In this document: positions 30,282 through 41,971 of the stretch, in pieces | How positions within the stretch are numbered: the stretch's first letter is position 1 | Layout of the letters: each line of letters starts with the position of its first letter | Assembly (NCBI GenBank): GCA_949292245.1 | Contig: CASEYV010000007.1 | Span: forward strand, 1-42,353 | Reading direction: 5' to 3' | Source: an uncultured bacterium | Lineage (GTDB): Bacteria > Bacillota_I > Bacilli_A > RF39 > UBA660 | DNA length: 42,353 nt | Position numbers and translations under genes: made by a program | Notes under the pieces: model-generated | What the model was told of the DNA's origin: nothing | Databases searched by the model: none | The model's input: the letters and a program-made list of their open reading frames with translations, nothing else

Positions 30282-31258
30282 TTATCTTTGATCACTTATT
30301 GTTGCATCACTGTTGCTTGCTATTAAAGCAGTAATTGGGTCATATGGTGCTCCGGTGGTTGTTCCAGATAGTAGTGCTATGTCAATAGCATTTTCAGGAA
30401 TTCCCCATGAATTACCAGAAAATATGAAATTCGCTTGGTCCACTACATAACCTCTAGTGTTGTATGCTACGTTGTAAATTATAAAACCGATTGAATTAGG
30501 ATTTAGATAAGCCGGTTGACGAAGTGTATGAAAAATGTTGTTTCTTACTAATAAATTTGTGATACTAGGTTGAGTAACAAATCCTCTATTTACTACCCAT
30601 GTTGAGGAATCTCCCGATTGCTCTGGACCATAAATATTGCAATTTATTATTTGATCATTATTTCCTGCAATCTGAATAAATTCTACTGGATAAGGTACAT
30701 TACTAGTTATTGTTAATCCATCTATTGTAGTATTATCACTCTTGATTAAAAAAGGAATAATCGCTGCTTCTAATAAAATAATTGCTCCAGCTGTTCCTTT
30801 AATTGTTAAACCTTGTTCATTTAATACCATTTGCTGAGTAATTTGATAGATTCCACTTAAAACATTAATCGTACTGTTTGGCTTTGCTACTGCCAAGGCT
30901 TCGTCGATTGTTTGAAAAGGATTAGCTTGACTACCATCTCCACCAGGATTAGCATTTGCTTCTACAAATAAATTGTAGGGATTACCTTCAATACTACTAG
31001 TGGCTCCAGTTGTCCCTGTTGGGCCAGTTGCACCAGTTGCTCCAGTAGGTTTCGTTGTCCCAATTGGACCTGTTACACCTTCAGCACCACTTGGCCCAGT
31101 GGCTCCAGTTGGTCCTGTTGGACCTGTTGAACTTTCTGGGCCGGTTGGACCTGTTGGACAGTTATACTTCCTAAATTTGTTGGCAAAACATAGCAATAAT
31201 TAATTTGTTTTTTATTAGAATTTTTTATTTTTTTTATTGCTTTTTTATAATTATTCAA
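30282..31258 (-). CDS. Collagen-like/beta-helix surface protein with frame problem near its start
   Basis: The main frame (30282-31196) has about 15 Gly-x-Thr/Pro triplets ([15 protein letters not shown] and similar), then a right-handed beta-helix domain of about 230 residues ([40 protein letters not shown]). This build is seen in exosporium and other surface filaments. Its first codon is TTG at 31196 with no ribosome site. A strong GAGGAG site stands before a TTG at 31258 instead, opening another frame with a basic N-terminus. One extra base in a T run around 31170-31185 would join the two. A point deletion, slippage-based switching or a read error could explain it. Confidence 0.7.
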
Positions 31259-35962: not shown

Positions 35963-36528
35963 TTAATATTAAAATTAGGTATCATTACAGGTATAGGATG
36001 TACTGGAATTTCTATAACTCCATATTTTGTTATCGTTTTAAAGTTATTATTATTAATTATTGGAATTATTTTTAATGGTTCATTAAATCGATTACTTCTA
36101 GTATATTTTAATTGAAATTGATTATTACTAATTTGTTTTTTTTCTACTTCTTGATAATCAATTGGATAATATAATTGTAATTTTTTAATATATTTTTTTA
36201 TCTCATCTTTAGTCATAGGTGCACAAGTTTCTATTTGAATATTATTATCATTAGCAGAAATATCTTTATAACAATTAATTGCATTTTTGTTAAATAGATT
36301 AGCATATTCTTCAATAAATGTTTTTCTAAAATTTATTTACTTTATTTCTAAGTCGTTATTATCTTTTTTTAAAACTTCTATTGATTCAATATAATCCATC
36401 ATCAGATTTTGCTTTTCACTAATCGAAAGATCATTCCATTTAATCTTAAACTTGTCTTGATAAAAAAGAATAGTCATAGATTTAATGCTTTCTAAATCTC
36501 TTTTTAACATTATATCTTCAAAAGTAAA
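35959..36528 (-). pseudogene. C-terminal remnant of a large serine recombinase
   Basis: The minus strand reads FTFEDIMLKRDLESIKS...WNDLSISEKQNLMMDYIE, which matches [20 protein letters not shown]...[18 protein letters not shown] of the E1 recombinase. After DNNDLEIK there is an in-frame TAA (36337-36339), and INFRKTFIEEY continues in the same frame, again matching the intact enzyme ([10 protein letters not shown]). Everything N-terminal, including the catalytic domain, is deleted: the preceding gene ends only about 35 nt away. The last about 80 residues align poorly. Confidence 0.75.
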
Positions 36529-36562
36529 CTAAATAGTATTTTAAAAGTGTTTTTAAAATATA

Positions 36563-36826
36563 TTAATTAATTTTATTTGCTTTAATATGCCTTTCCAATT
36601 CATTTAAAGATATAGTAATATAAGCATTTTCACAATTATTAAAGAATAAATAAGTTATTTCATTAATAATTAATTTATGTGGTTCAATATAAGCAAGATT
36701 AGTTTTTGAGATATGAATGATATTACCTTTAATAATTTTAGATTTAATATTAAGAAATTTAAGTATATTTTTTATCCGTCTTTCTAATATCTCAACAATA
36801 TCTAATTGTTCCTTTATTATCTGCAT
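36563..36826 (-). CDS. E2 junction-proximal small protein
   Basis: 87 residues, paralogue of the 41589-41864 product. Both share a helical start, an IIKGNI or IINGSI strand, KTNLxYIEPHKxII and a closing L-E-x-hydrophobic-I helix. Each lies just inside the right end of its element and upstream of the recombinase (here a remnant). That position fits a recombination directionality factor or a regulator of integration, but the fold is not recognised. GGAG lies 10 nt ahead of the ATG. Confidence 0.65.
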   Translation of the reverse strand: MQIIKEQLDIVEILERRIKNILKFLNIKSKIIKGNIIHISKTNLAYIEPHKLIINEITYLFFNNCENAYITISLNELERHIKANKIN

Positions 36827-36852: not shown

Positions 36853-36978
36853 AAAAAAAGTTAACCGAAATTAACCCTTCATATATAAAAGTCGATTAGT
36901 TCGACTAATTTCCCTCTGGTGCGAGTGTCGTAGTAATTTACAACTTTCTCTCAAAGACGATTGATATAAAAATCAATC
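36853..36978 (-). repeat. Junction module B (between E1 and E2)
   Basis: On the minus strand: hairpin GATTGAT/ATCAATC (36959-36978), CACCA (36917-36921), 11 nt, palindrome GTCGATTAGTTCGAC (36891-36905), then terminator GTTAA/TTAAC with seven T (36853-36875). Same order and same 11-nt spacing as modules A and C, with a diverged palindrome. Confidence 0.75.
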
Positions 36979-37009
36979 ACTATAACAATAATACCATCAA
37001 AAGACAAAA

Positions 37010-37029
37010 GTAGCAATATATCTTGCTAC
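37010..37029 (-). terminator. Terminator closing the E1 gene set
   Basis: Stem GTAGCAA/TTGCTAC, 7 bp, loop 6 nt, followed on the minus strand by TTTTGTCTTTT. It lies 44 nt past the last E1 gene. Confidence 0.8.
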
Positions 37030-37072
37030 AATTATTTTTTAACAATTATTTAGTAGAATATAAATTAATATG

Positions 37073-37291
37073 TTAATCAAGTTTTGAAAATTCTATTATT
37101 AATTGTCCTAATAAATTTTGATCTTCAACTTGTATAACTTCATCGTTCAAAATTTCTCCAATAATATAATTATTAAAGTCATCAAGTTCTGCTAAATAAA
37201 CGTATTTTTTTTCATTAAATGTTAACATATTAACCATAGCATACTTTTTATTATCATCTAAAGTCAAAATATAGTCTTTATTATTTTTCAT
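37073..37291 (-). CDS. Small DUF1292-like protein of E1
   Basis: 72 residues, acidic: DYILTLDDNKKYAMVNMLTF then KYVYLAELDD and IIGEILND strands. It resembles the N-terminal half of the 93-residue product at 169-450 (LTLDNNQEYIVGSI). It overlaps the preceding membrane gene by 4 nt. Function unknown; the recurrence of the gene pair is the informative point. Confidence 0.6.
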   Translation of the reverse strand: MKNNKDYILTLDDNKKYAMVNMLTFNEKKYVYLAELDDFNNYIIGEILNDEVIQVEDQNLLGQLIIEFSKLD

Positions 37292-37626
37292 CTTTTCTTG
37301 CCTCCGGATAATGTGTCACTTATTTCTGTTTCATTTCCTTTTTTGTTATAAAGTTCTTGTAAGTGATTAATTAACTTTGGCGTTACAATTCCGTGTGATA
37401 CTATTTGAGTTACTAGTCCTAAGGAAACAGGAACAATAGAAAAATCACCACTAGATAAAATTGAACTATAGGTTGCCATTCCAACAAAACCAATAGAGGT
37501 TGAAGCAACAATTCCAATTATACCTCTACTAAAACTTTTTGCATCCTTAACTTTTTGTAACTCTAAATCATTAGTGGGTTCAGTTACATTTGTTATTTTA
37601 TGTTTCATAATAATATCTCCTGACAC
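37288..37626 (-). CDS. Small membrane protein of E1
   Basis: 112 residues with two hydrophobic segments (about 35-56 and 62-84) between a charged N-terminus and a polar tail DTLSGGKKR. The true start is probably the second ATG (MKHKITN, six codons in), which has the better spacing to the GGAG upstream. It is the membrane half of the pair with the DUF1292-like gene. Not recognisably a holin. Confidence 0.6.
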   Translation of the reverse strand: MSGDIIMKHKITNVTEPTNDLELQKVKDAKSFSRGIIGIVASTSIGFVGMATYSSILSSGDFSIVPVSLGLVTQIVSHGIVTPKLINHLQELYNKKGNETEISDTLSGGKKR

Positions 37627-37669
37627 AAATTATTATACCATACTTTTTTTAAATTTTTACTTTTTTTAA

Positions 37670-39058
37670 TTAAATTTCCATTTCAAAATCATCTTTTTCT
37701 TTTTCATAATCGTGATTTTTGCTATATTCATAAGTATCTTGTAAATCTTCAAAGGTATCTTTCTCAATAATTTTCTTTGAATATAAATCTTCTGCAACGT
37801 CCATATATTGTTCTCGTTCTTTTTCCTTTCCAAATAGTTTATTTTTTATAAAAGATATTACTTTTAAGAATTTATCTTTCCAAAATGATAGTGATTGTCT
37901 TAAAGAAAGATTTTCCTCTTTTAAATCTTTGATTTGTTTATCTTTGACTTTACTATTTCTAGTTAATGTATCTGCTCTTAATTGTAATGCCTCGTTATTT
38001 TCAGTAAGAGTTTGTATTTGTTTATGATTTTCTTTTATTTCATCATCTACGTTATTGAGAGTTATAGAAAGTGTTTGAATATTTTTATATTCATCATTTG
38101 TTTTATCAACATGATTGATATACTTTTCAATTTTGTCTTTATCTTCTTGTTTTAAAATATAGTTATCTTTCTTAATTAGTGTTGGTTTTAAATCACTTAT
38201 TATTTCTTTAACTTCTTTTGATTTATTATCAAGTTCAAAAGATTTTTTATTGGCTTTATTTAAGTTTTCTTGATTCTTTTCTAGTTGTTCTTTCATTTCC
38301 ATATAATTATCCATTTCAGCTATATGATAATCTCTATTTCTACCTTTTTGTTTTTTCTTCAAGGAGTTAGTAAGATTATATTCTTTATTAAAAGATTCAA
38401 TACATAAAATTCTCATTTTATCTTGTAATTTACGAAGTGATTCTTTTGTAAAAACATCACTTTTACCAACTTGTTTACTCATGCCATTTTTACCACCAAC
38501 TTTAATTGGTACACCTACGATATGAAGATGAGGGCTTGTTTCATCATAATGAATAATTGCACTTGCTATTTTAAAGTTTGGTAGCATTGTTTCTAAATCA
38601 ATAACTTGTTCTTTAAAAACATTCGTCATTTTTTTCTTAAATTTCAAATCTTTAGTATCCCAATATTTTTTATTTCCTAGCTCAATAATAATTTCACAAG
38701 CTAAATCGTTTTTAGAGTTATTACTAACGTGAGTAAAGTAATCTTTTATTTTTCTATTTTCTCTTGTTTGTTTAGAATTATATTCTTCTTTTGCTTCTTC
38801 AAATTCTTCAATATATAATTTTTTAACATCATCAACTAGAGAAGAACTACCACGTATTATTTCAATATCTTCTTGTTTATTATCATATTTTCTATAATTA
38901 TGATTATCTACCTTTGTTAGTCCACCTGCATTTTGTATTGCATTATTGCTTTTAGAGGTTGTGCCACTTACATTTGATTTTGCACTTGCTTTACTACTAT
39001 TTTTCTTGTTTTTATCACTACCTAAATGAAATGAATATGCTAATTCTATAATAATCAC
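37670..39058 (-). CDS. mobV: MobV/Pre family relaxase
   Basis: 462 residues. HNYRKYDN (about residues 53-60) matches the HNxR motif I of MobV relaxases, and ASAIIHYDETSPHLHIVGVP (about 163-182) is the metal-binding motif III HxDExxPHxH. The C-terminal half is a long coiled coil. It would nick oriT and lead a DNA strand during mobilization. The annotated GTG start lies only one base from AAAGGAG, so translation may begin a little later; the exact start is unresolved. Confidence 0.88.
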   Translation of the reverse strand: MIIIELAYSFHLGSDKNKKNSSKASAKSNVSGTTSKSNNAIQNAGGLTKVDNHNYRKYDNKQEDIEIIRGSSSLVDDVKKLYIEEFEEAKEEYNSKQTRENRKIKDYFTHVSNNSKNDLACEIIIELGNKKYWDTKDLKFKKKMTNVFKEQVIDLETMLPNFKIASAIIHYDETSPHLHIVGVPIKVGGKNGMSKQVGKSDVFTKESLRKLQDKMRILCIESFNKEYNLTNSLKKKQKGRNRDYHIAEMDNYMEMKEQLEKNQENLNKANKKSFELDNKSKEVKEIISDLKPTLIKKDNYILKQEDKDKIEKYINHVDKTNDEYKNIQTLSITLNNVDDEIKENHKQIQTLTENNEALQLRADTLTRNSKVKDKQIKDLKEENLSLRQSLSFWKDKFLKVISFIKNKLFGKEKEREQYMDVAEDLYSKKIIEKDTFEDLQDTYEYSKNHDYEKEKDDFEMEI

Positions 39059-39384
39059 GCTCCTTTATTTTTTATACTTTGGTTATTAGTTAAAACTTGG
39101 TTTTTGAGAGTATATTTTGTTATGACAAAATATTTAACCCCCTAGGTATTTTGACGCAAGCATCAAAATAACCTCGTGGGCTAGGAGTACCTAGAACCCT
39201 TTCCTTTATTCCATATTGTTTTAAAACTTCGTAATAAAACAAAATTACATAAAGCATTGATGAAAATATTTTATATTCATCAAACATTTTCTTGTATTAG
39301 TCTAATCACTTTCATTGAAACTTTGTTTCAACAAAACGTGCGTTAGACATATTAACTTTTTGAAAAAAGTTAGCAAAAACTTTT
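39059..39384. other. Intergenic region with oriT-like inverted repeats
   Basis: No gene. 39145-39173 is a strong hairpin: TATTTTGA/TCAAAATA, 8 bp, inside GGT/ACC. It is nested in CTAGGTA (39142-39148) and TACCTAG (39188-39194). Position directly upstream of the relaxase gene makes it a candidate origin of transfer. Farther right TTGAAAC/GTTTCAA (near 39313-39329) and AACTTTTT/AAAAAGTT (near 39353-39370) hairpins follow the recombinase and may terminate it. Confidence 0.55.
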
Positions 39385-41348
<1,964 letters not shown>

Positions 41349-41384
41349 TTTTATCATCTCCCTTTTTCTAATTTTTCAAAAAAA

Positions 41385-41429
41385 GAGGGGTCAAAACTAC
41401 TAGCACCAAAACTAATATTTTGACTCCTC
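41385..41429 (-). terminator. Terminator between leader peptide and recombinase
   Basis: Stem GAGGAGTCAAAA/TTTTGACCCCTC followed by TTTTTTT on the minus strand, ending about 30 nt before the recombinase start. Confidence 0.85.
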
Positions 41430-41480
41430 AAATAAGACATTTAATTCATTTGATAATTCGTATATAAATTGTTTAATCAT
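41412..41480 (-). CDS. Putative 22-residue leader peptide
   Basis: MIKQFIYELSNELNVLFEES followed by KY. Good ribosome site (GAAAGAAAGG, 6-7 nt spacing). No codon run points to one amino acid, though it is rich in Glu, Leu and Asn. It probably acts through its translation rather than its product. Confidence 0.5.
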   Translation of the reverse strand: MIKQFIYELSNELNVLFEESKY

Positions 41481-41588
41481 AGAAGTACCTTTCTTTCCCC
41501 TAAATAAAGACGATACTGCTTGTCATTTATTGACGAATATGATACATCATTTTATTTGATCTGTCTAGTATTTAAGGACTAAATGCCC

Positions 41589-41864
41589 TTAATTTTGGCT
41601 TTTAATGTAGTTTTCAAGTTCATTTATCTTAATTTTTCTACTTAAATTATTGATATAGATTTCATTAGAATAGTTAAAAGCAAGAAATACATTATTTTTG
41701 ATTATTATTTTATGTGGCTCAATATAACTTAAATTAGTTTTATCTACTTTTCTAATACTACCATTTATAATAGTTGGAGTAGTATTACAAAAATCACATA
41801 TTATTTCTAATCTCTTTCTTAACGATTCTTCTACATCAATTTCTTTCTTGGTAATATTTATCAT
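41589..41864 (-). CDS. E1 junction-proximal small protein
   Basis: 91 residues from the ATG at 41864, chosen for AAAGG nine bases ahead. A helical start (EESLRKRLEIICDFC) is followed by beta strands and KTNLSYIEPHKIIIK, then a final helix INELENYIKSQ. Paralogue of the E2 gene at 36563-36826, in the same place next to the junction. It could control excision direction or recombinase expression; no known excisionase motif is visible. Confidence 0.65.
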   Translation of the reverse strand: MINITKKEIDVEESLRKRLEIICDFCNTTPTIINGSIRKVDKTNLSYIEPHKIIIKNNVFLAFNYSNEIYINNLSRKIKINELENYIKSQN

Positions 41865-41899
41865 AGACACCAACCTTTCTTATGATTTTTTTCTATACG

Positions 41900-41971
41900 A
41901 AAAAAATCAATCATTTCGATTGATTTCTATATATCAAAGTTCGAATAGTTCGAACAGATTCGTCAATGGTG
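41900..41971 (-). repeat. Junction module A (tmRNA/E1 border)
   Basis: After the tmRNA CACCA end (41967-41971) come 11 nt, palindrome GTTCGAATAGTTCGAAC (41939-41955), and terminator AAATCAATC/GATTGATTT (41904-41926) with seven T. The 17-nt palindrome is identical to that of module C, 8.5 kb away. Confidence 0.8.

Follow-up and report, generated by a model that had tools for sequence, protein, structure and literature searches.

The window is the whole of contig G000:C7 (42353 bp) from the 1.69 Mb draft genome of an uncultured, gut-type bacterium. On its minus strand it carries, in 5' to 3' order, the tmRNA gene ssrA, an ORF of 94 amino acids, a promoter-like site, a short leader, a terminator, a serine recombinase gene and a Mob_Pre relaxase gene. 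The features at the locus are the following.

42324-41967, minus strand: ssrA (tmRNA).
41589-41873, minus strand: orphan ORF of 94 aa between the tDNA and the recombinase promoter, found in most related elements.
41539-41567, minus strand: promoter-like site TAGACA-17-TATCAT (10 of 12 matches), with the transcription start predicted at about 41532.
41503-41531, minus strand: hairpin P1 (AAUAAAUGAC / GUCUUUAUU, loop AAGCAGUAUC), expected to form first in the nascent RNA and exclusive with P2.
41485-41516, minus strand: hairpin P2 (GUAUC..UCUU / AAG..GGUAC), which pairs the ribosome-binding site of the leader.
41488-41492, minus strand: ribosome-binding site of the leader, AAAGG (GAGAGG in the nearest relatives, L107 and L102).
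41412-41480, minus strand: leader ORF of 22 codons, MIKQFIYELSNELNVLFEESKY and stop.
41378-41429, minus strand: intrinsic terminator, comprising a hairpin (41429-41385) and a U run (41384-41378).
39385-41348, minus strand: serine recombinase gene, putatively leader-controlled (ATG at 41348; frame broken at the A-run 41333-41328; PF00239 and PF07508).
41241-39385, minus strand: remaining recombinase ORF of 618 aa.
39058-37670, minus strand: MobV-like relaxase gene (Mob_Pre, PF01076).
36917-41966, minus strand: the whole element of about 5.05 kb, with the 94-aa ORF, the recombinase, the relaxase and two small ORFs.

Elsewhere in the window, an ORF at 30282-31196 has an N-terminus with collagen-like GPTGPT repeats.

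The recombinase contains both a Resolvase and a Recombinase domain. The Mob_Pre domain of the relaxase is accompanied by a match to the NCBIfam MobV family that is weak and below the cut-off, and no tyrosine integrase occurs among the ORFs of the window element. In terms of gene content the element fits an integrative mobilizable element (IME) with a serine recombinase, a kind of element for which excision and transfer would be expected. It is bounded by the ssrA CCA (41967) and by a second CCA at 36917, at which the tandem relic of an older, similar element begins (36103-36826); within the relic are a paralogue, 46% identical, of the 94-aa ORF and a piece of a broken recombinase. At 41900-41926, just within the element end, a terminator-like stem (AATCAATC/GATTGATT) precedes a run of seven U; comparable stems occur behind the tDNA in other elements, as if the element supplied a new terminator to the tRNA gene.

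The relatives in the collection are metagenome-assembled genomes which we refer to as RF39-like Bacilli; the collection lists them under names such as Candidatus Onthousia, Scybalousia and Coprosoma. Comparison of 67 non-redundant relatives in which a tDNA lies 400-700 bp upstream indicated that the element sequence begins after the CCA of a tRNA or tmRNA gene, such that similar ends (e.g., TTGACGAATCTGTTCGAAC) occur behind quite different tDNAs. The targets, of 15 kinds by anticodon, are tmRNA and the tRNAs for Thr, Gly, Leu, His, Cys, Met and Arg; some few relatives among the 67 (e.g., L023) lack the common end and may represent other arrangements. As of 2014, tRNA genes were stated not to be among the known targets of serine recombinases (PMC4383910), and in a review the sites of serine-recombinase IMEs are located within genes (PMC5704250). 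No description of serine recombinases at tRNA genes was found in the open-access library searched. The targeting of CCA ends is a separate finding that deserves a study of its own.

The 94-aa protein is kept beside nearly all of these recombinases. It matches no Pfam, PHROG or NCBIfam family above the cut-off and no PDB sequence. Its predicted structure is a confident alpha-beta model (pLDDT 87.5, pTM 0.72), for which a Foldseek search of PDB and BFVD gave nothing at E <= 0.001 and the VIA-align hits, among unrelated proteins, did not exceed a Z of 6.5; on account of these results no fold relative is claimed. The protein is a candidate regulator or directionality factor. For serine-recombinase IMEs no directionality factor had been proposed, according to the review cited above (PMC5704250).

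The leader begins with an ATG at 41480 and ends with a TAG at 41414-41412. The terminator hairpin, GAGGAGTCAAAATATTAGTTTTGGTGCTAGTAGTTTTGACCCCTC, is followed by seven U; its minimum free energy is -20.1 kcal/mol (z = -4.3), and none of 200 shuffled sequences was equally stable. The last codons of the leader, GAG GAG TCA AAA TAT, constitute the 5' arm of the terminator, and the stop codon begins 15 nt into the 45-nt hairpin. This is the arrangement described in the first-pass annotation, and both the open frame and the position of the stop exceed chance expectation across the relatives, as detailed below. The same annotation placed the stop on the loop side of the terminator; the stop is indeed inside the hairpin, but since RNAfold adds pairs in the upper hairpin, it falls where the 5' arm ends or the loop is entered, and not deep in an open loop. 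The nucleotides of the leader are identical in the window and in L107, and the leader of L102 differs at a single codon.

The first-pass reading also implied a transcript start upstream of 41480. The promoter-like site is situated there, and although such sites are frequent by chance in AT-rich DNA, the relatives carry a counterpart at the corresponding place, a TTGACA/TTGACT/TAGACA - 16/17 - TATTAT-like pair. Above threshold, Rfam 15 recognized only tmRNA and tRNA in the window, and the leader had no match in 11 loci at E values up to 5.

Relatives of the recombinase were drawn from 99 genomes plus a contig collection. A computer search of the 134 regions upstream of these genes returned 106 in which a candidate hairpin is joined to a U run; some of the calls are poor, and about 90 appear good by eye. 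Dozens of related elements from RF39-like Bacilli share the attenuator arrangement. The leader is present in class A1 (which includes the window), in classes A2 and A' (L010, L018, L084, L086) and in part of class B. Classes C, E and F of the same recombinase family carry a terminator before the recombinase without a recognisable leader, so that leader control is not universal.

The start ATG is invariant in both aligned main classes, A1 and A2, and since the alignment fixes the start codon there, the frames in these two classes were not selected for openness. All 47 scored leaders are open from the start codon to the terminator, with the stop codon located 10-35 nt into the hairpin, while stops occur in frame +1 in all 47 and in frame +2 in 44. 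One A1 member, L080, whose leader is open, was left out of the 47 because its hairpin contains no stop. The product of the chance probabilities over 11 leader clusters is about 10^-7.6, an upper bound on the strength of the evidence because, in leaders not belonging to A1 or A2, openness was itself the criterion by which the frame was chosen.

A simpler explanation would be a plain terminator, which ends the transcripts of the 94-aa gene or limits basal expression of the recombinase, the leader ORF being incidental. Classes C, E and F, with a terminator and no clear leader, are in line with this explanation, as is the probability of about 7-30%, estimated by dinucleotide shuffling, that any single leader is open by chance. 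However, the terminator is separated from the 94-aa gene by a recombinase promoter, and chance would rarely produce a complete set of open leaders with a fixed ATG and ribosome-binding site, in which the other frames are full of stops. We therefore consider the plain terminator unlikely. The leader frame is kept in relatives, which was a check proposed in the first-pass annotation, and the comparison supports a conserved attenuator before the recombinase as well as the claim of that annotation that translation of the leader would open the terminator.

A covariance model of class A1 was built and used to search genomes. Matches were found in 73 of the 243 genomes of the family, and the window leader scored 108 bits in this whole-genome search; the same search confined to the window gave only weak places on the plus strand, and the whole-genome result was relied upon. 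The recombinase follows 30 of the 32 distinct places, some of which are training sequences under another handle; the exceptions are L142, with the first part of a recombinase only, and L173, with none. L142 (G000:C5, 1501-1720) is a second A1 attenuator in the same genome as the window, with a score (144.6 bits) higher than that of the window copy, and its recombinase is cut off after about 19 codons. In the plasmid collection the leader had no DNA match, and the recombinases there were only distant ones (<60% identity).

In the best-sampled subgroup, A2, nonsynonymous and synonymous single changes number 559 and 108, a ratio of 5.18 versus the 5.14 expected without selection once stops are excluded; the ratio is descriptive, since the sequence pairs are not independent. 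The three codon positions vary alike (0.72, 0.65 and 0.76 bits for positions 1, 2 and 3). Moreover, the same 5' arm is crossed in three different reading frames among the classes (..EES.., ..RGV.. and ..RCQ..). By these counts, amino-acid change in A2 is neutral. As the open frame is maintained while the amino acids drift, the passage of the ribosome, and not the peptide, appears to be what is kept.

These observations bear on a classical attenuator that responds to an amino acid or a nascent peptide, of the trp/his or TnaC/ErmC type. Such a system would likewise place a short leader, equipped with a ribosome-binding site of its own, ahead of a terminator. The leaders, however, contain no run of codons for one amino acid and encode no conserved peptide, class A lacks an antiterminator, and three frames are used; this explanation is accordingly regarded as very improbable. 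A nascent-peptide signal in particular was rejected, given the neutral amino-acid change in A2, the use of other frames in other classes and the lack of a conserved stalling peptide.

One feature overlooked by the first-pass annotation is that the ribosome-binding site of the leader is itself sequestered. In nearly all A1 and A2 members this site is mostly paired by P2. Among 18 relatives, 3 of the 9 pairs of P2 show change on both sides, and 94% of the alignment cells pair, versus 51-60% for slid structures. Covariation is moderate: six pairs are changed on both sides in A1 and none in A2, where only one-sided changes occur. P1 is weaker and earlier than P2 and shares a strand with it, so that the two are mutually exclusive, and both recur in A1 and A2 with differing stem sequences. 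A small upstream ORF in P1 was considered and rejected, being absent from some relatives. Comparison of the sequences shows the leader, the promoter, the terminator and the sequestered ribosome-binding site, together with their conservation.

In class A no RNA antiterminator was detected, the duplex energies of the 5' leader with the 5' half of the hairpin being no better than those of shuffled sequences. In the sister class B, the 5' leader pairs over about 14 bp with the 5' half of the terminator and outperforms nearly all shuffles in 21 of 22 members. Class B thus appears, from its predicted pairing, to use an RNA antiterminator before the same gene. In class B loci (L014, L012, L065, L074 and others), an upstream GUUUUAUGUUUUUG can pair over 14 bp with the 5' arm and loop of the terminator.

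The two hairpins may constitute a ligand- or protein-responsive RNA switch, in which P1/P2 would be the sensor and the leader the read-out. Such a switch would extend the translation-dependent explanation and not exclude it. Its attractions are the mutual exclusivity of P1 and P2 in two classes with different stems, the P1 loop motif GCAGUAUC, which is given as invariant in A1 and also in A3, and the use of an RNA antiterminator by the sister class. Part of the loop conservation is explained by its GUAUC, which is also required for pairing with GGUAC in P2, and the absence of an Rfam match likewise weighs against a switch; we know of no ligand for P1/P2. On balance, a switch is possible but clearly short of an even chance.

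The state of the window copy is a separate matter. Near the start of the recombinase it has six A residues (41328-41333), compared with seven in its closest relatives, L107 and L102; its frame consequently stops after MYDNIKK (seven codons), and the 618-aa ORF starts past the RVSTEDQ motif, which holds the presumed catalytic serine. With the start frameshifted, the copy is probably decaying, although the A6 may reflect either decay or a homopolymer error in the assembly. The recombinase of L008 is likewise frameshifted near its start. Whether the window attenuator is a decaying, non-functional relic, a question that concerns this copy and not the family, we regard as evenly balanced. Apart from the frameshift, the terminator stem has an A-C mismatch (-20.1 versus -24.9 kcal/mol in L107) and the ribosome-binding site is altered relative to L107. 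On the other side stand the leader nucleotides shared with L107, the possibility of a homopolymer error in a draft assembly, and transcript slippage on the A-run, which could restore some product. Control of element excision by the attenuator, as originally suggested, is doubtful for the window copy owing to the A6 frameshift.

The best explanation is, in our judgement, a likely one, to which the comparison of relatives lends good support: translation-dependent antitermination resembling that of pyrBI and ampC, with a gated leader. RNA polymerase would start near 41532, and the RNA would fold into P1 first and then into P2. By default, P2 would pair the ribosome-binding site, few ribosomes would enter the leader, the terminator would form and the recombinase would remain off. 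Ribosomes translating the leader to its stop would cover the 5' arm, such that no hairpin forms and transcription continues into the recombinase gene; the ribosome itself would be the antiterminator, and the peptide would have no role. We infer that the leader is translated, that the ribosome masks the arm, that the default state is off and that P1/P2 act as the gate; the recombinase would then probably be made only when the leader is translated. The ribosome-binding site might be opened by the overall translation or growth state, or by a ligand or protein that binds P1. As the stop precedes the release point, terminated RNAs would retain the stop codon and would give rise to no non-stop ribosome complexes.

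The predicted effect of the ribosome on the terminator is large. In 39 leaders the mean terminator energy was -23.6 kcal/mol when free, versus 0.0 when a ribosome at the stop was masked out, with the ribosome footprint, as is general, taken to end 13 nt downstream of the first nucleotide of the stop codon. In E. coli, when a translated stop was relocated to a position 5 bp ahead of a terminator, termination efficiency fell from about 90% to <10% (PMC4824070). The same study cautions that, over the first 100 bp, ribosomes may fail to reach a polymerase that does not pause (PMC4824070). The need for such a pause counts against the model, which is built from sequence; also counted against it are the L080 hairpin without a stop, the moderate covariation, the leaderless classes C, E and F, and the partly decayed window copy.

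Several known systems can be compared with this arrangement. The E. coli pyrBI attenuator has a 44-codon leader that reads past the terminator, and senses UTP via polymerase pausing. As in pyrBI (mentioned in PMC4824070), a translated leader overlaps an intrinsic terminator, and ribosome progress, not the peptide, is predicted to block the hairpin. The present system departs from pyrBI in that its leader ends within the hairpin, in that its ribosome-binding site is sequestered and in that it would control a recombinase gene. The growth-rate attenuator of E. coli ampC consists of a start-stop codon pair, at which ribosome loading near the terminator raises read-through. Here too, more translation is predicted to give more expression, but from an ORF of 20-27 codons that runs into the stem. 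The trp/his attenuators share the short leader and the terminator but employ regulatory codons and an antiterminator; here both are lacking, and translation to the stop is predicted to open the gene, not to close it. In Tn916, attenuation before the resistance gene tet(M) is reported to be relieved by translation-inhibiting drugs (Su et al. 1992, cited in PMC9632896). Both cases involve a mobile element of Firmicutes activated, in the present case by prediction, via transcription attenuation tied to translation; in contrast to Tn916, the gene immediately behind the present attenuator is the recombinase, which inhibitors should leave shut. A literature search returned no paper on an attenuator before a serine recombinase.

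The first-pass annotation had further tied the attenuator to stress that tmRNA also senses. This part is not supported: the same leader-terminator units are also found in elements behind tRNA-Thr, Leu, Gly, Met, His, Cys and Arg, which makes ssrA one among many insertion targets, and a special role of tmRNA was rejected on this basis.

Taken as a whole, a bistable P1/P2 that gates a sequence-neutral leader, with the ribosome as antiterminator, in tDNA-specific mobile elements that would carry the first family of serine recombinases found at the CCA ends of numerous tRNA and tmRNA genes, is a tentative proposal that we place a little below even. How elements with serine recombinases hold the recombinase off is poorly known, and if the proposal is true, the recombinase would be governed by ribosome traffic. 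A frame that is strictly kept while its amino acids are free would be a clean example from nature of selection that acts on ribosome passage alone, and the two apparent attenuator designs before the same gene would render the family a natural comparison between them.
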